This document shows positions 6,183 to 50,047 of a stretch of DNA of 64,000 nucleotides, in pieces. Where the stretch lies: positions 361,195 to 425,194 of the forward strand of contig NZ_JAHKPS010000022.1 in the NCBI RefSeq assembly GCF_018860565.1, given 5' to 3'. The position numbers and the translations under genes were made by a program. Numbering within the stretch: position 1 is the first letter of the stretch; each line of letters starts with the position of its first letter. The DNA is from Winogradskyella psychrotolerans. GTDB lineage: Bacteria > Bacteroidota > Bacteroidia > Flavobacteriales > Flavobacteriaceae. The notes below the pieces were generated by a model that was not told the DNA's origin, searched no databases, and saw nothing but the letters and a program-made list of their open reading frames with translations.

Positions 6183-7668
6183 GTTTTGCTTTTTTTGAAT
6201 CTATTTTATAAATGATAAAACCTATAATAAGTGATGTTATAATTCCGATAGCTGCCGAAACACCTGGATTATTTACGGGTTCTTGCATGTAAGGTGTAAT
6301 TCTTCCGTAGTAAATTCCAAAATGAACGACAATGGCTGTAATGCTAGCAATAAAAACCGAACGTGTAGATACATGATTTAAAAATGTACCAAACAAAACA
6401 GGAACAAAAGCAGCAGCAAAATAAGCGTAAACCCCATTTTGGGCAAAAATGGCAACACTTACGTTTGGATTTTTAATTTGTTCCCAACTTAGTAAAAAAC
6501 TTACAATACCTAATACAACAATCACGACTTTGTTAATAGTTATGGTTTTTTCGGTAAATTTATTTTTAAATAAAGGGTTTATAATATCTGAGGTAATTGT
6601 AATAGATAAGGATTGAATTAAACTCTCTAGAGTAGATAAACCTGCGGAAATTAATCCAACAACAATGACTAGGCCTACACCTACAGAAAATTTTGTAACG
6701 ACGTAGGTTGGGATAATTTCATCCATTCGTAGTTGTTTTCCGTTTACCATAAAATCTGGAAAACTGATGCGTGCATATAAGCCTACAATCACCACTAAAA
6801 AGAACACTATCATAAAAGCTATGCCGCTAAATAGATAGGTGTTTATTTTACTTGAATCTTTTAATAATAATGATTTTGTGATTATATGAGGCTGGCAAAC
6901 AATAGCAACTCCAATAACAATTTGGGTAACGATGATTTCAAAATAATCTCGAAATAGGAAACTTTCTGTATTTGTTGGTTTTGTTAAATTGGGATCGATT
7001 GCATTTAGTTTCTCAAAAAAGCCAGTGATACCATCGGCAAAATATTCGTAGCCCGAACCAATTAAAATAAGCGCAACAATACACATAATAATGGCTTGAA
7101 TGGTATTGGTGTAAACCATAGAATTTGCGCCGCCAAACATCATATAACCAAAGACAAAAACGGTAATTCCCATAAGCACATAAAAGGGATCCATGTTAAG
7201 TGATTTTGAGATGACTTGAGTTAACCCAACATTGATGAGTACAATAAATGTGATGAGTAATAAGGCAATAATACCAAAGAAAAAAGCATAATTCTTGCTG
7301 TTATAGCGTTTGCCAATCCATTGTGCCATGGTGGTTGCTTTTACAGCATTGCCTTGTTTTACAAAGCCTTTTGTAAAAACGATAAGAGATATAAAGGCTG
7401 CAATTGGTAATACAAAAGCAAACGAGATGACGCCAGAAATTCCGTAGAGTGCAATAAATCCAGGATTAATAATAAATGTTGCGGCACTTGTCATTGAAGC
7501 GGCTAAAGACAAACCAACAACCCACGATGGGAAGCCAATATTGCCAACGGCATAATCGTTAATGCTCGTGTTTTTTCGTGCTCCTCTTATGACAAAAAAT
7601 AAGATTACAGCAGCATAAACTGCTAATAAAATCAACATGTAGGTGACTAATTGGTCTGATGCTATCAT
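6157..7668 (-). CDS. Sodium/solute symporter (SSS family)
   Basis: An inner-membrane transporter of the SSS/LeuT fold, about 503 residues with some 13 hydrophobic segments. Recognisable features include the early segment GNIGFPSWVVGLSLAASMTS with the family's small-residue stretch, MAQWIGKRYNSKNYAFFFG, and SAGLSTLESLIQSLSITITS in the sodium-site region. A longer reading from a TTG at 7692 is possible, but the ATG at 7668 (MIASDQLVTYML) places the first membrane helix normally. It is the first gene of the operon with the acyl-CoA synthetase, hydrolase and helical-repeat genes. Together with the TonB receptor it suggests import of a carboxylate or ester through both membranes, but the substrate is unknown. 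Confidence 0.9.
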   Translation of the reverse strand: MIASDQLVTYMLILLAVYAAVILFFVIRGARKNTSINDYAVGNIGFPSWVVGLSLAASMTSAATFIINPGFIALYGISGVISFAFVLPIAAFISLIVFTKGFVKQGNAVKATTMAQWIGKRYNSKNYAFFFGIIALLLITFIVLINVGLTQVISKSLNMDPFYVLMGITVFVFGYMMFGGANSMVYTNTIQAIIMCIVALILIGSGYEYFADGITGFFEKLNAIDPNLTKPTNTESFLFRDYFEIIVTQIVIGVAIVCQPHIITKSLLLKDSSKINTYLFSGIAFMIVFFLVVIVGLYARISFPDFMVNGKQLRMDEIIPTYVVTKFSVGVGLVIVVGLISAGLSTLESLIQSLSITITSDIINPLFKNKFTEKTITINKVVIVVLGIVSFLLSWEQIKNPNVSVAIFAQNGVYAYFAAAFVPVLFGTFLNHVSTRSVFIASITAIVVHFGIYYGRITPYMQEPVNNPGVSAAIGIITSLIIGFIIYKIDSKKAKLGQTRLDS

Positions 7669-7739
7669 TTCAATACATTTCTTTAGAAACAAGTAACAAA
7701 CTTTAAATAATTTTAGGCTTTATTATTTTTGTTTATAAA

Positions 7740-7817
7740 GGTGTGACTTTTATCTGTTTTTATGCAAAAATAGAATTATGATAAATATACATTTAAAATA
7801 TTTAGGTGTGACTTTTA
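7740..7817 (-). promoter_or_regulatory. Paired GGTGTGACTTTTA motif upstream of the symporter operon
   Basis: Two identical 13-mers GGTGTGACTTTTA start at 7740 and 7805, exactly 65 bp apart; the likeness continues into a following TGTTTT. They lie 72 and 137 bp upstream of the symporter ATG. The core recurs twice upstream of the TonB receptor at the other end of this locus. This is a candidate shared regulator site; the regulator is not in the window or not identified. Confidence 0.45.
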
Positions 7818-8001
7818 ATTTGTTTTAAGAGAATTAAAGATGATTTTAATGCGTTATTTCTATTTTTTGAGTGAGTTTAATAGTTAATCTTTTTTTTGCG
7901 TTGTTAATGCTCACAACATAACATTCAAGTATAGTGATTGATGATAAGCACCTCGTTGTTATAGATTGTAGTTATAACGTGTTTTTATGATTTAGGAAAG
8001 T

Positions 8002-8040
8002 CTATAAAAAACAAAAACAGCAACCAATAGGGTTGCTGTT
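8002..8040 (-). terminator. Rho-independent terminator after the miniprotein gene
   Basis: A perfect 10-bp stem, AACAGCAACC (8016-8025) and GGTTGCTGTT (8031-8040), has a 5-nt loop. On the minus strand it is followed by a T-rich run (TTTTTGTTTTTT). It lies 65 bp downstream of the miniprotein stop codon. Confidence 0.85.
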
Positions 8041-8104
8041 GTCGTTTGTAAATCTATTGTAGATTTGAAGTTTATTACGTATTTAAAAAAGAGTTGTTTT
8101 AGGT

Positions 8105-8281
8105 TTAAGCCACTTTTTTGAGTAAATCAAAACAAGGACATTTTTTACAACGCTTGTTTTCTGCTTTTTTATATTTTTTACAACATTTGGTTTTTACTTT
8201 GCCAAGTGTTTCAATACCAGAAGCTTCAAGAACCTTAATACGTTCCTTTTTTAACTTTTTGTTTTTCTTCTTTTTGCCCAT
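8105..8281 (-). CDS. Small Lys/Cys-rich protein (58 aa), unknown function
   Basis: The ORF runs from ATG at 8281 to TAA at 8105 and encodes 58 residues. It begins MGKKKKNKKLKKERIKVLEA and ends ENKRCKKCPCFDLLKKVA. About a third of residues are Lys, and there are five Cys (CC at 33-34, then C45, C48, C50), which could bind metal or nucleic acid. Support for a real gene comes from a -7-like CAAAAATA (reverse of TATTTTTG) at 8323-8330 and a strong terminator behind it. It sits between ferritin and the symporter operon on the same strand. I do not know a function; a metal-related role next to ferritin is only a guess. Confidence 0.65.
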   Translation of the reverse strand: MGKKKKNKKLKKERIKVLEASGIETLGKVKTKCCKKYKKAENKRCKKCPCFDLLKKVA

Positions 8282-8364
8282 CTTTAGTTTTCCTGCAAAA
8301 GGAAATCTTTAAGTTTTCAGGACAAAAATAACTATTTATAATTAATCTAAATAAATTTTAACAT

Positions 8365-20016: not shown

Positions 20017-20158
20017 ATTCCCGTGAAAACGGGAATCCCATAAATTATTACAGAATTTTAAATGTTTAGACTACTGCTTTCAAAAAGTTTGAGACAGATT
20101 ATGTTTAAACTTTAAGGATATAGGGTTTTCTTCATGAGATTCCTGCCTTCGCAGGAAT
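20017..20158. repeat. Paired palindromic repeats after yraN
   Basis: ATTCCCGT-GAAA-ACGGGAAT occupies 20017-20036 and ATTCCTGCCTTCGCAGGAAT occupies 20139-20158. They flank about 100 bp of AT-rich non-coding DNA. The second palindrome is the same element as in the 46.5-48.2 kb array. The pair fills the convergent yraN/nadD interval from stop to stop and could also act as a bidirectional transcription end. Confidence 0.75.
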
Positions 20159-45435: not shown

Positions 45436-46077
45436 TTATTTTGAAATTTTCTTTTGAGTAGCATTACTCAACAAGGGGTCTTTTATGTGTTTTGAGGGTT
45501 CAATAGGTTTCCGTGTTTGGTCTACGATGAGAATGCCGTTAGAAGTAACATCGACCACTTTTATGATGGTGCCTGATTTTAGTTCGGTTAATGCATCGGT
45601 AAGCGCATCTAATTCGCGCATGGTGCCTTGTACACTCACGGTTACTTTTCCCATTTTAGAGCGCTCTGCTCCAATAGTTAGATAGACTTCACCAACGGCA
45701 TCGAGCGCATTTTTATAATTTAAAGTACCACTATCTGAAAGTTTGCTAATAAAATAAAATAGTGAAGCCATAATTACCATCATTAACAATCCGCAAATCA
45801 CAGAAATAATTATAGTTAGTGGTGTAGAAAGTCCGGCATCTATACATGCAATGCCACTCCAACCAAATATGGTGAAAAAGCCCACAAGGTTTTTAAAAGA
45901 TATAAATTGAAAACCAGCTCCATCAGCATCAATATCGGAGTCTAGGTCGCCAATATCATCGGCATCTCCTCCTGTAAAAGCCATAATCATAACAATAGAG
46001 AAAATGAGTGAGCCAATGATAGCCACTAACCAATACATTTTGGATAGAAATTCTAAATTTGAAAACCATTCAGCCAT
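45436..46077 (-). CDS. NfeD-like membrane protein, flotillin partner
   Basis: A 213-residue protein with about three membrane helices (WLVAIIGSLIFSIVMIMAF; LVGFFTIFGWSGIACIDAGL; TPLTIIISVICGLLMMVIMA) and an acidic loop (DADDIGDLDSDIDADGAG). The C-terminal OB-fold of the NfeD type is visible (DAVGEVYLTIGAERSKMGKV, MRELDALTDALTELKSGTI, IKVVDVTSNGILIVDQ). The layout equals YuaF of Bacillus, which acts with flotillin in the membrane; gene order here supports the same role. Confidence 0.88.
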   Translation of the reverse strand: MAEWFSNLEFLSKMYWLVAIIGSLIFSIVMIMAFTGGDADDIGDLDSDIDADGAGFQFISFKNLVGFFTIFGWSGIACIDAGLSTPLTIIISVICGLLMMVIMASLFYFISKLSDSGTLNYKNALDAVGEVYLTIGAERSKMGKVTVSVQGTMRELDALTDALTELKSGTIIKVVDVTSNGILIVDQTRKPIEPSKHIKDPLLSNATQKKISK

Positions 46078-46341: not shown

Positions 46342-46476
46342 TAGATGAAGGAATTTTGTTACAGGTTTTTTGAAAAATATTTTGTTTTGAAGCAGAAGTC
46401 ATCAATTGATTTGTATCCTGTAAGGTTTCAAAACTCTTGTAGGCTATTACAAGACTAATTATGTTCTCTCTACTTG

Positions 46477-48194
46477 TCATTCCTGCGTGAGTAGGGGTCT
46501 ACTTATTTACTTTTGTGCTTTATAATATTAATAGTTGTTGGAATTATAGGACATGTTTAAGCTTGGTGGTGGTGTTGTGGATTCCTGCTTTCGCAGGAAT
46601 GACAAAGCGTATTGTTATTTGTAATGGCTTAGCTTGGATGCAGTTGAAGGTTTTTCTGCTTTGGCTAGAATGATAGAGCGTGTTGCATTTAGATTATACT
46701 ATTCATTGTTTTTAGTCTTTTGTCATTCCTGCGAAAGCAGGAATCTACTTTATATGATTGATGTCTGTTTGATTAATTATTATGAAGAATTAAGTTATTT
46801 AACGCATAGTAATTGATTTAAAGGTGTAGTGTTGTTTTTGGATTCCTGCTTTCACAGGAATGACAGGCATAAAGAGAATATATGCTCTTAAATATTAATA
46901 CATATTCTACTATTGAAAACAAGTCCAGTCTTTAGATAAATCTTTCCAGATTGGATTCTCTTCTTCAATAAGATCTATTTTCCATTGACGCTTCCATTTT
47001 TTCATATTCTTTTCTCTTTTTATAGCATCATTGACATATTGATAGGTTTCAAAATATATTAATCTATCTAAACCGTATTTTTTTGTAAAACCTTCGACTA
47101 ATTTGTTTTTATGTTCAAACATTCTACGCTCTAAATCGTTGGTAACACCAATGTACAAAGTACCGTTATATTTGTTAGATAGTATGTAGAGGTAATATTG
47201 ATGTACATTTCTATGCATATTTTTATAAATGCATTGTGGATGAGGTTTCTTTAAGTTGAAGGTTTGTCTTTTTTAAAATAGAGACAAAATATGTCGATTT
47301 TAATAAAGATATAAATTGTTTTCAAAGTTGTGAAATACAGAGGGTTACTTTTTTAAAATAGGTTTGTTTGATAAGTACTTTGTCATTCCTGCGTAGGCAG
47401 GAATCTACTTTATATAGTTGATGTCTGTTTGATTAATTATTATGAAGAATTAAGTTATTGAACGCATAGTAATTGATTTAAAGGTGTAGTGTTGTTTTGG
47501 ATTCCTGCTTTCGCAGGAATGACAAGGTGTGTTGCTATTTGTAATGGCTTAGCTTGTATGTACCTGAAGATTTTTCTGCTTTGGCTGGAATGATAGAGCG
47601 TGTTGCATTTAGATTATACTATTCATTGTTTTTAGTCTTCTGTCATTCCTGCGTAGGCAGGAATCTACTTTATATAGTTGATGTCTGTTTGATTAATTAT
47701 TATGAAGAATTAAGTTATTTAACGCATAGTAATTGTTTTAAACTAGGTTGTATTATTGTGGATTCCTGCCTACGCAGGAATGACAAAGCATGTTGTTATT
47801 TGTAATGGCTTAGCTTGTATGTACCTGAAGGTTTTTCTGCTTTGGTTGGAATGATAGAGCGTGTTGCATTTAGATTATACTATTCATTGTTTTTAGTCTT
47901 TTGTCATTCCTGCGAAAGCAGGAATCTACTTTATATGGTTGATGTCTGTTTGATTAATTATTATGAAGAATTAAGTTATTGAACGCATAATAATTGATTT
48001 AAAAATGTAGTGTTGTTTTGGATTCCTGCCTGCGCAGGAATGACAAGGTGTGTTGTTATTTGTAATGGCTTAGCTTGGATGTAGTTGAAGGTTTTTCTGC
48101 TTTGGCAGGAATGACAAAGTTTGTAGGGATGACAGTATTTTGTAGATTGGTTTAATGATGAAGTGTTGTTGTGGATTCCTGCTTTCGCAGGAAT
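46477..48194. repeat. Ordered array of GTCATTCC-type palindromes with two alternating spacers
   Basis: Ten near-identical 20-bp palindromes (type ATTCCTGCGAAAGCAGGAAT) start at 46581, 46725, 46842, 47385, 47501, 47645, 47762, 47906, 48022 and 48175; a decayed copy starts near 46477. Start-to-start distances are 144, 117, 543, 116, 144, 117, 144, 116 and 153 bp. Spacer sequences alternate between two conserved types, giving a 260-261-bp direct repeat. Alternate palindromes are in opposite orientation (TGTC before, or GACA after). The 543-bp slot contains the GIY-YIG gene. Apart from that gene the region holds only repeat-derived frames. Confidence 0.9.
46910..47218 (-). CDS. GIY-YIG nuclease inside the palindrome array
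   Basis: A 102-residue single-domain nuclease of the GIY-YIG superfamily (UPF0213-like). The signature reads YYLYILSN (YLY for GIY) and then GTLYIGVTNDLERRMFEHKN (YIG, with catalytic Arg and the following helix), Tyr and the later IYFETYQYVNDAIKREKNMK with the family Glu. The core catalytic residues appear intact. It occupies one spacer slot of the palindrome array: the 144-bp spacer expected between palindromes at 46842 and 47385 is replaced by this gene. A link with repeat movement is an inference; such small GIY-YIG proteins otherwise have no defined role. Confidence 0.88.
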   Translation of the reverse strand: MHRNVHQYYLYILSNKYNGTLYIGVTNDLERRMFEHKNKLVEGFTKKYGLDRLIYFETYQYVNDAIKREKNMKKWKRQWKIDLIEEENPIWKDLSKDWTCFQ

Positions 48195-48220
48195 GACAGT
48201 ATTCAAAGGAATGAAAATAT

Positions 48221-50047
48221 TTATTTAAATTTATAACGCAAGCCAAACAACACATTACTTGGCGGCATTGGTGTAAAGCCAGATTCAATATAATCGGCAT
48301 CAAAAATGTTGCTTGCTGTTACGGATAATTCCATCTGGTTCAATTTCATAATTATTGAAGCGTCCCAAACATTATAGGTTTGTCCTGTGGTGCGTTCGGC
48401 ATATTTGTAAATGATGCTTTGGCTCACGTTTTTGAGTAGTTGTGTGCTTAATCGTGTGGTGTAATGATGTTTTAAGGTGTTTAAAGCATAACGTGATAGT
48501 TCCTCGTTTTGCTCTAAAATATCATCTTCTAAATAGGCATATCCAAAAGCTAAGGTTTGGTTAAAGCTATTTATTTCAAAATTATAAGCCACATCAATTT
48601 CGAGCCCTTTGGTATTGACTTCTGCAATGTTAGTGGCTGTAAAGATTTCTTCAATGGTGTTTGGTCTTATAAAATCAATCAAGTTTTTGGCATCGCGATT
48701 AAAAACGGATAGACTCGCTCTAATACTTTGGGAATTGTATTTAACACCAATTTCTTGCGCAAAGGCTTCTTCTGGTTCTAAATTTTCGTTGCCGTTGGTT
48801 CTTGGATCGCTGTAATATAAATCGGTATAGGTAGGGATTCTATAGGTAAATCCAATATTTCCGTAGGCTTTAAGGTTGTTGGTAATATCGAACCCTACAT
48901 CTAATCCAGGGAATCCGTTAAATTTAAAATCCGAAAAATAGGTGACGGCAACACCAGGTGTAATATCTAAACGGTTATCGATAAATTGAAAACGGTGTTC
49001 TAAAAAAGCTGTTGCCATAAAACGGTTGTGATTACCTAAGTTATTACTGCGTAAATAGGTTTTAGAGAGGTCTATCCCAAAGCCTGTAATCCCTAATTTA
49101 GAGGTGTATGCCGCATTGGCCTCGGCTCCAATTTTGTTAGACAGGTGGAAATTTCTGAAGAATGCAGGTTCAAAACGTTTTAGAAGGAACATATCTTGGT
49201 TGCGTTTCCAATAGATACGCGGTTGAATTTTTAGTTTTTCAGATTGAAATTTCGTGGTGAAGGCGATTAAACTGTTTTGTGTTTCTTCATATTCATTATA
49301 AGCAGGATTGGTGGTGTAAAAATTTTCGGCACCAAACTTACGTTCAGAAAATGTGGCAATCATTTCAATAGGTTGATCTTTTTTGTTGAAGACACTTTTT
49401 AAGACATAGTTAGAATTGTCATAATCTGAATTGTTCCGGTAGCCTTCAGAGGTCATTTTTCCTATATGAAGGATGTGTGTTGAGTTTTCTAATTCATTAC
49501 CAACAGTTACAGAACCATTAAGTTGACCAAAAGAACCCGTTTCAAGATTTGCAGACACGGCATTATCTAAACTCGATTTTGTGACAATATTAATAGCTCC
49601 TGTAAATGCATTTTGTCCAAAAACACGTGCCGCAGGTCCTTTTATGACTTCTATACGTTCAATAACTTCAAGCGGAAGCGCCGCATTTAAGGTATGATGC
49701 CCTGTTTGTGCATCGTCCATTTTAATGCCGTCTATTAATAACAATGTTTGATCGAAACCACCACCTCTAATAAATAAATCGGCCTGACTTCCTCCGGTGC
49801 CACGACGTCTAATATCGACACCTGCGATTTGCTGTAATACATCTGAAATGGTCACCGCAGCACTACTTTTAATATCTGCTGAGGTCATAATATTTATGGT
49901 TCTGGAATTGTCCTTGAAGGGTAAATCAATACGTGTTGAAGTGATGATTACTTCGTTTAAAGAATCGGTTTTTATGGTTTGCTCTTGTGCGTTTATTTGA
50001 GATATGAAAAGCATAATAAAAGCAAGGTGTATGTATTTATTTGTCAT
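48221..50047 (-). CDS. TonB-dependent receptor, BtuB-like
   Basis: A 608-residue outer-membrane receptor without the N-terminal carboxypeptidase-like domain, of the length of BtuB. Signal peptide to SQINAQ; TonB-box-like SLNEVIITSTRIDLPF; plug domain with VTISDVLQQIAGVDIRRRGT, LFIRGGGFDQTLLLIDGIKM and IERIEVIKGPAARVFGQNAF. Barrel strands end with NVLFGLRYKFK. It is divergent from a MocR-like regulator gene with only 70 bp between the start codons, so that regulator probably controls it. No cobalamin riboswitch fits in this gap. B12 as substrate is therefore not supported; an amine or vitamin-like ligand is possible. Confidence 0.9.
   Translation of the reverse strand: MTNKYIHLAFIMLFISQINAQEQTIKTDSLNEVIITSTRIDLPFKDNSRTINIMTSADIKSSAAVTISDVLQQIAGVDIRRRGTGGSQADLFIRGGGFDQTLLLIDGIKMDDAQTGHHTLNAALPLEVIERIEVIKGPAARVFGQNAFTGAINIVTKSSLDNAVSANLETGSFGQLNGSVTVGNELENSTHILHIGKMTSEGYRNNSDYDNSNYVLKSVFNKKDQPIEMIATFSERKFGAENFYTTNPAYNEYEETQNSLIAFTTKFQSEKLKIQPRIYWKRNQDMFLLKRFEPAFFRNFHLSNKIGAEANAAYTSKLGITGFGIDLSKTYLRSNNLGNHNRFMATAFLEHRFQFIDNRLDITPGVAVTYFSDFKFNGFPGLDVGFDITNNLKAYGNIGFTYRIPTYTDLYYSDPRTNGNENLEPEEAFAQEIGVKYNSQSIRASLSVFNRDAKNLIDFIRPNTIEEIFTATNIAEVNTKGLEIDVAYNFEINSFNQTLAFGYAYLEDDILEQNEELSRYALNTLKHHYTTRLSTQLLKNVSQSIIYKYAERTTGQTYNVWDASIIMKLNQMELSVTASNIFDADYIESGFTPMPPSNVLFGLRYKFK

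Follow-up and report, generated by a model that had tools for sequence, protein, structure and literature searches.

The array and its nuclease gene

The DNA analysed here is a 64-kb window of the Winogradskyella psychrotolerans genome, in which an array of short palindromes lies between a 213-aa neighbour gene (45436-46077) and a TonB-receptor gene, downstream of the latter. No Pfam family was found for the 213-aa product, which is presumably NfeD-like. The palindromes have the form ATTCCTGC-N4-GCAGGAAT, for which the whole window holds 15 matches at up to three mismatches compared with 0.18 expected from shuffling. Ten of them form the array (Table 1); nine are exact, the copy at 46842 has one mismatch, and a degenerate eleventh with three mismatches, at 46479, is preceded by TGTC. 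The start-to-start spacings of the ten (144, 117, 543, 116, 144, 117, 144, 116 and 153 bp) and their positions reproduce exactly, by pattern scan, those given in a preliminary description of the locus.

Every one of the ten palindromes has an unpaired tag at one end, either TGTC before it or GACA after it, and the full form in the array is TGTC-ATTCCTGC-N4-GCAGGAAT-C(T/C), with a tail of CTA or CCA. In a folding computation the single strand of the palindrome forms an 8-bp stem with a 4-nt loop. The preliminary description had alternate palindromes inverted; as judged from the GTC tag this holds through the array save for the final two, at 48022 and 48175, which point in the same direction. 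Mechanical open reading frames at 46515-48303 cross the palindromes, contain repeated peptides such as HSCESRN and VIPAKAGI, and are probably not genes.

Table 1. Features of the array and related elements in the 64-kb window. Palindrome start, first position of the 20-bp palindrome within the tagged hairpin.
Feature	Positions	Strand	Palindrome start	Basis
Lone dispersed exact palindrome copy, elsewhere in window	20139..20158			pattern scan
Approximate extent of block absent from three relatives (empty intergenic region)	46385..48215			site alignments
Degenerate GTC-tagged hairpin, 3 mismatches	46476..46498	+	46479	pattern scan
GTC-tagged hairpin (CGTC-1 REP), tag on right	46581..46603	-	46581	pattern scan, tag
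GTC-tagged hairpin, tag on left	46722..46744	+	46725	pattern scan, tag
Spacer A copy 1, inside hairpin pair	46745..46841			spacer comparison
GTC-tagged hairpin, one mismatch, left neighbour of nuclease gene	46842..46864	-	46842	pattern scan, tag
Slot holding nuclease in place of B spacer; no similarity to A or B	46862..47384			spacer comparison
GIY-YIG nuclease, 102 aa, single domain, Ssn-like	46910..47218	-		Pfam PF01541 E 2.8e-15, alignment, AlphaFold2, dN/dS
GTC-tagged hairpin, right neighbour of nuclease gene	47382..47404	+	47385	pattern scan, tag
Spacer A copy 2	47405..47500			spacer comparison, folding
GTC-tagged hairpin	47501..47523	-	47501	pattern scan, tag
Spacer B, with decayed palindrome at 47572	47521..47644			spacer comparison, pattern scan
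GTC-tagged hairpin	47642..47664	+	47645	pattern scan, tag
GTC-tagged hairpin	47762..47784	-	47762	pattern scan, tag
GTC-tagged hairpin	47903..47925	+	47906	pattern scan, tag
GTC-tagged hairpin	48022..48044	-	48022	pattern scan, tag
GTC-tagged hairpin, last of array, oriented like left neighbour	48175..48197	-	48175	pattern scan, tag

The 543-bp slot does hold an intact single-domain GIY-YIG gene at the position where a B spacer (see below) is expected, as had been described. Both the domain match and the conserved residues place the protein in the GIY-YIG superfamily; Y22, G24, R32, H36, E69 and N88, which we take to be the catalytic residues, are invariant in 21 aligned family rows. The AlphaFold2 model has a mean pLDDT of 92.4 and its closest solved folds are UPF0213 and Slx1, the structure search being otherwise uninformative. 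Comparison with four same-site relatives gives a dN of 0.016-0.032 at a dS of 0.58-1.26, which indicates strong purifying selection.

These properties would suit a housekeeping nuclease of DNA repair whose gene has only by chance come to lie among repeats, since the domain is common to UvrC, the model resembles the structure-selective nuclease Slx1 and the gene is under such strong selection. There may also be a precedent, in that small COG2827 genes are taken for UvrC-like repair endonucleases in the available part of PMC1839093, where one of three in Caulobacter crescentus has an SOS box. A repair role is improbable, as it leaves unexplained both the bracketing by GTC hairpins across phyla and the way in which the stem class follows the nuclease tree. 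The GIY-YIG enzymes also include homing nucleases, and in NCBIfam the window protein weakly resembles the group I intron endonucleases (27.5 bits against a cut-off of 56.05). A homing-like cassette would cut gene-free, hairpin-bearing intergenic DNA and the gene would spread in by repair, which is compatible with its standing in for a single B spacer of the array. Nevertheless, the close copy is single in its own genome despite 37 exact targets, and the gene usually lies within a hairpin pair and not in a cut palindrome, so homing of this kind has little probability.

The genome encodes two further members of the nuclease family, 49-56% identical to the window protein. The second gene (56%) has two decayed palindrome copies around it, neither with a tag. 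The third (49%) has a private GTC hairpin, AATGCGCA, with the stem A(A/C)TGCGCA, a type that is found at only two places in the genome, both beside that gene.

Spacers and tandem growth

The four copies of spacer A (96-97 bp) are 89-96% identical to one another and the three copies of spacer B (124 bp) 91-94%, whilst A and B spacers are 52-57% identical to each other, no more than is obtained after shuffling (mean 54%). The two conserved, alternating spacer types of the preliminary description are thus real and mutually unrelated, with the qualification that the final spacer is a B-like variant of 133 bp (73-74% identical to B) and that the alternation reflects local tandem copying of a 260-bp unit, with no independent ordering rule. 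From the spacer comparison the copies look like products of tandem recombination, as had been suggested. The B spacers contain an extra decayed palindrome, which the pattern scan places at 47572 and 48093 and which is also seen at 46653 as a member of repeat family D4.

The second copy of spacer A and its two hairpins together form a single imperfect hairpin of 148 nt when folded with RNA parameters (z -8.4). In a scan of 60 genomes that scored up to 15 candidates per genome, spacer A was confined in its own genome to the window array. Four further genomes gave matches in the same scan: G203, G252 and G229 carry the spacer at the orthologous site, G252 has one clear copy elsewhere as well (contig C17), and in G228 there are two matches, both short. 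A dispersed MITE made from the 148-nt A unit is ruled out by the restriction of spacer A to this array in its own genome; a MITE or dispersed composite would have its unit and spacer together at several unrelated sites, and the array unit is not distributed in this way.

Relationship to known repeat families

In the available text of PMC3733652, CGTC-1 REPs have a CGTC, TGTC or CCTC tag, an 8-bp stem starting with AT, a 4-nt loop and a short tail that is mostly CCA, and are dispersed, mostly as head-to-head pairs. The same text equates CGTC-1 in Neisseria with dRS3 and the RPE-4 and RPE-6 repeats of Rickettsia conorii with CGTC REPs, and describes REPs as commonly found downstream of genes. 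A tag of this kind is present on all ten window palindromes and on the degenerate one, the ATTCCTGC stem, the loop and the CTA and CCA tails agree, and the 37 exact copies are dispersed over several contigs, with five pairs outside the array as called by their spacing (43-48 bp). By sequence, therefore, the window palindromes fit the CGTC-1 REP class, which is that of dRS3 in Neisseria, and to this extent the comparison with REP/RAYT systems made in the preliminary description was apt.

The dRS3 element, ATTCCC(N8)GGGAAT, combines with RS elements of 30-160 bp into intergenic arrays of 200-2700 bp (PMC3898611, as far as its available text goes). Such dRS3/NIME arrays share with the window a 20-bp palindrome of the form ATTCC-(C/T)GC-N4-GC-(G/A)-GGAAT in both orientations, short spacers and an intergenic array (PMC3898611, same portion). 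As in the window array, a GIY-YIG gene also lies inside a gonococcal dRS3 array. The two differ in copy number (37 exact copies here compared with almost 700 dRS3 in the meningococcus), at stem position 6 (T/A in the window hairpin, C/G in dRS3) and in the tag, which is TGTC in the window hairpins and CGTC in dRS3. The gonococcal gene was found in Neisseria gonorrhoeae L203 and L204 (NZ_CP119140.1 and NZ_CP119142.1), inside an array of CGTC-1 hairpins, and its product is 49% identical to the window protein in L203. Both records are 2.17 Mb in length, chromosome-sized, and filed as plasmids.

This gonococcal protein may be Ssn, reportedly a family of site-specific single-stranded GIY-YIG nucleases with NTS target repeats, described from Neisseria (Nature Communications 2025). 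Ssn and NTS are said to affect how repeat-flanked DNA is taken up, recombined or rearranged. Ssn and the window enzyme are alike in being small, single-domain GIY-YIG proteins with a repeated target in their own genome, the target of the window enzyme being putative. The system probably belongs to a kind that is already described, at least in part. A literature search, thin in subscription papers, found no link of GIY-YIG proteins to dRS3, REPs or Ssn; in the available text of PMC9465073 the terms GIY-YIG and REP occur together in unrelated places.

The likeness to REP/REPIN-RAYT systems extends to tagged hairpins, inverted pairs, dispersal and an enzyme gene flanked by inverted hairpins. Unlike the IS200/IS605-type tyrosine (HUH) transposase of the RAYT systems, the window enzyme is a GIY-YIG nuclease, and the tag is GTC in place of the GTAG of RAYT-linked REPs. 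The gene between the hairpins thus encodes no tyrosine (HUH) transposase and its repeats are not of the GTAG type, and the locus is not a REP/RAYT system in the strict sense.

Association of nuclease and hairpins

The own genome contains 37 exact palindromes, nine of them in the array, and 74 at up to two mismatches, whilst the palindrome read backwards, as a control, has no copy. In 199 genomes of the host family (198 genera) the exact palindrome is present in 85 and the nuclease (E<=1e-10) in 96. All 16 genomes with a close nuclease relative carry the exact palindrome, with a median of 12.5 copies, compared with 69 of the 183 others, a close relative being defined by a threshold of our choosing (E<=1e-40); among the other nuclease carriers the figure is 46 of 80, and among genomes without a nuclease hit 23 of 103. 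Within 60 Winogradskyella genomes the median number of palindromes is 26 with a close relative (n=16) and 7 without (n=44). Genomes of the latter group can nonetheless be palindrome-rich, with 56 in G216 and 28 in G254. These counts, together with the 23 nuclease-free genomes, indicate that the nuclease is not needed for the palindromes to persist.

For a wider comparison, loci were picked by nuclease similarity alone, as the best 80 of at least 550 confirmed stretches from a nuclease-alignment scan of genome contigs, a sample that leans toward the closest relatives of the window nuclease. A GTC-tagged hairpin lies within 250 bp of the nuclease gene at 65 of these 80 best-matching loci (on both sides at 50, on one side at 15, with none at the remaining 15). 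The control, 72 mechanical open reading frames of 60-200 aa from the same loci, has such hairpins at four (both sides at one, one side at three), and the enrichment of GIY-YIG homologues beside palindromes that the preliminary description had predicted is thereby borne out. Allowing loops of up to 7 nt raises the count to 67 of the 80 and leaves 13 without. The control tags CTG, GCT and TCG were found at 1, 0 and 6 of the 80 respectively. A tag-blind scan for perfect 8-bp hairpins gave 158 near the genes, 147 of them with GTC on one strand, and 33 beyond 1 kb, 14 of them with GTC. The density of GTC hairpins at the 80 best loci is 4.02 per kb near the gene, compared with 0.072 per kb at distances above 1 kb and 0.239 per kb in intergenic DNA far from the gene.

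It is on these figures that a more commonplace account fails, namely that the hairpins serve to terminate transcription or to stabilise mRNA and that the small gene merely lies in repeat-rich intergenic DNA. The position downstream of the TonB-receptor gene would agree with it, being common for REPs according to the part of the literature cited above. Yet the enrichment is specific to the GTC tag and recurs across phyla, the near-gene density exceeds that of far intergenic DNA, and coincidence is contradicted by the excess over control frames; this explanation is very improbable indeed.

Phyla were assigned from record titles, many of which denote metagenome bins. Among the 80 best loci, hairpins accompany the gene in 37 of 40 from Bacteroidota, 5 of 10 from Pseudomonadota, all three each from Myxococcota and Ignavibacteriota, one of two from Thermodesulfobacteriota and five of six with no phylum given. 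Groups with one or two loci each, including Nitrospirota, Planctomycetota, Bdellovibrionota and Omnitrophota, are all positive, and no hairpin was found at the single loci from Chloroflexota, Bacillota, Chlorobiota, Bipolaricaulota and Doudnaibacteriota. At L015 (G019, C20:45756-46642) two shortened tandem nuclease copies stand beside the full gene with the same hairpins between them.

A sample from a plasmid collection provided nine loci out of 33 records, with GTC hairpins on both sides in L203, L204, L205, L206 and L209 and on one side in L210; the GTC scan was negative in L207, which has CCTC instead, and in L208 and L211. In Azospirillum lipoferum 4B the order is sufB-[pair]-gene-[pair]-sufC, and in Sinorhizobium meliloti the gene lies, as judged by eye, within an array of CCTC-tagged hairpins. 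The L208 relative (1175-2091, on a Planktothrix agardhii plasmid) has an MmeI-like restriction enzyme gene on one side and a DISARM helicase gene on the other.

The usual layout places the gene inside a hairpin pair (>gene<), as at 39 of the 50 loci among the 80 best with hairpins on both sides. The window gene, in contrast, stands between two pairs and outside both (<gene>), and the 543-bp slot cannot be upheld as a cassette with boundary palindromes of its own, as it had been portrayed.

Stem sequence and the nuclease tree

The scan around the 80 best-matching genes required an xGTC or CCTC tag and gave 165 hairpins, of which 153 have TGTC and 11 CGTC. Their stems start with AT in 153 cases and comprise 43 different 8-nt arms. 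Mapped on a nuclease tree of 108 rows, the stem class changes 30 times compared with 58.4 times when shuffled, and none of 200 shuffles was as low. Clustering is strong for the classes CCTGC, CTGAA and CCGCA (0 of 500 shuffles each) and less so for CCCGC (12 changes compared with 16.9 shuffled); CCGAA (three rows) and CTGCG (two rows) do not cluster and the mixed class does so little. Loop length changes 12 times, a figure without a shuffled control. The stem sequence thus appears to follow the nuclease tree overall, which counts as support and not as proof, because the tree is weak (97 columns, 8 of 98 inner branches starred) and near-identical rows are included.

History of the site in Winogradskyella

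The 213-aa neighbour gene allowed the site to be compared in 20 of 44 other genomes, of which eight show no TonB receptor within the stretch and were left out of the count. The nuclease is at the window's site in G203, G252, G228 and G201 (the G252 sequence ends before the receptor), and in another eight of the 20 the receptor is present and the nuclease is not. No relative was found to have the gene here and the palindromes missing: all five genomes with the nuclease at the site also hold palindromes, whilst five of the eight readable gene-free sites hold none by a strict scan. In G237, G227 and G202 the site is palindrome-free and 307-311 bp long; in G237 and G227 nearly all of it matches the beginning (~306 bases) of the intergenic region in the window, and in G202 the alignment covers the first 287. 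The window block of ~1.8 kb therefore sits between the end of these alignments and the receptor stop codon. At the same spot G232 has a single head-to-head pair. G254 has one hairpin, G240 one by the strict scan, and G235 and G211 have other sequence without hairpins.

The comparison of presence and absence that had been proposed thus yields a palindrome-free site of ~310 bp in three relatives and no precise boundary. Sixteen close nuclease relatives in the genus sample form seven clusters by their flanks, of which one is linked by nothing more than weak protein matches; five of the 16 are at the window's site. From these sites, gain or loss of the block and relocation are apparent. By dS the window gene is nearer to G228 and G201 and the TonB-receptor gene nearer to G203, which is no more than suggestive of horizontal transfer of the cassette.

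Proposed function and mobility

The observations to be accounted for are, in the sequences themselves, the hairpins, their tandem amplification, an association that spans many phyla, the specificity of the tag, the overall match of stem and lineage and the presence or absence of a block at one site. It is likely that the locus is a Bacteroidota counterpart of the dRS3/NIME arrays, in which CGTC-1-type REP hairpins have been tandemly amplified as head-to-head pairs and a partner Ssn-like GIY-YIG nuclease, encoded between two pairs, is predicted to nick the tagged hairpins in single-stranded form. Very distant bacteria, Neisseria among them, show the same pairing of nuclease and hairpin, which makes it very probable that the enzyme acts on these hairpins. 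It would bind the GTC tag and hairpin when the DNA is single-stranded, whether incoming, on the lagging strand or extruded, and would nick the tagged hairpin there, as is reported for Ssn and NTS. The likely effect on the cell would be altered uptake, recombination or rearrangement of hairpin-flanked DNA, again as reported for Ssn and NTS, and the pair of hairpin and nuclease would persist and spread partly for its own benefit. Against this pairing stand the 15 of the 80 best related loci that are hairpin-free, the palindromes of nuclease-free genomes, the placement of the window gene outside the pairs, unlike the usual layout, and the second nuclease of the own genome, flanked only by decayed, untagged palindromes.

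A bolder and decidedly tentative proposal is that small GIY-YIG nucleases are the long-missing dedicated partners of the whole CGTC REP super-family and spread these hairpins independently of tyrosine transposases, with the GTC tag and stem as a co-evolving address. The sequence evidence names a candidate enzyme for CGTC hairpins in a wide range of phyla and suggests a recognition code of constant tag and variable stem that can be tested enzyme by enzyme. Such a partnership would tie the dRS3 of Neisseria, RPE-4 and RPE-6 of Rickettsia conorii and the hairpins of Bacteroidota to one enzyme family.

Mobility of the system seems plausible from the sequences compared. In its strongest form the GIY-YIG enzyme would mobilise CGTC hairpins, single or paired, via single-stranded intermediates, and the gene with its inverted hairpins would be the autonomous unit, a kind of REPtron that dispenses with a tyrosine transposase. 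The prevailing >gene< layout, the dispersal of the close relatives over seven flank clusters, the lone pair in G232, the empty sites of G237, G227 and G202 and the greater number of palindromes where the nuclease is present would all be in keeping with it. So would the block of ~530 bp in Azospirillum lipoferum 4B (the gene and two hairpin pairs), which is missing from four aligned relatives, diverged flanks blurring its exact ends. Conversely, the family members of the own genome, only 49-56% identical, give no sign of recent gene copying there, neither target duplication nor a precise boundary is readable, and no GIY-YIG nuclease is known to join strands. Nor was a clean case of hairpin-pair gain found between strains in 24 kb of nine Sinorhizobium pSymB sequences. 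A REP/RAYT-like mobile system is accordingly possible and rather doubtful. Of the mobile system of nuclease and palindromes that the preliminary description had inferred, the pairing stands; mobilisation has left no sign in the own-genome family members, the confined A spacer or the Sinorhizobium strains.

With regard to the Sinorhizobium sequences, CP090106.1 (3.7 Mb, named pSymB) looks like the chromosome of Sinorhizobium meliloti. A hairpin array at alignment columns 6676-8343 varies in length, and S. meliloti GR4 (L220, pRmeGR4d) has an extra insert of 1.3 kb adjoining it.
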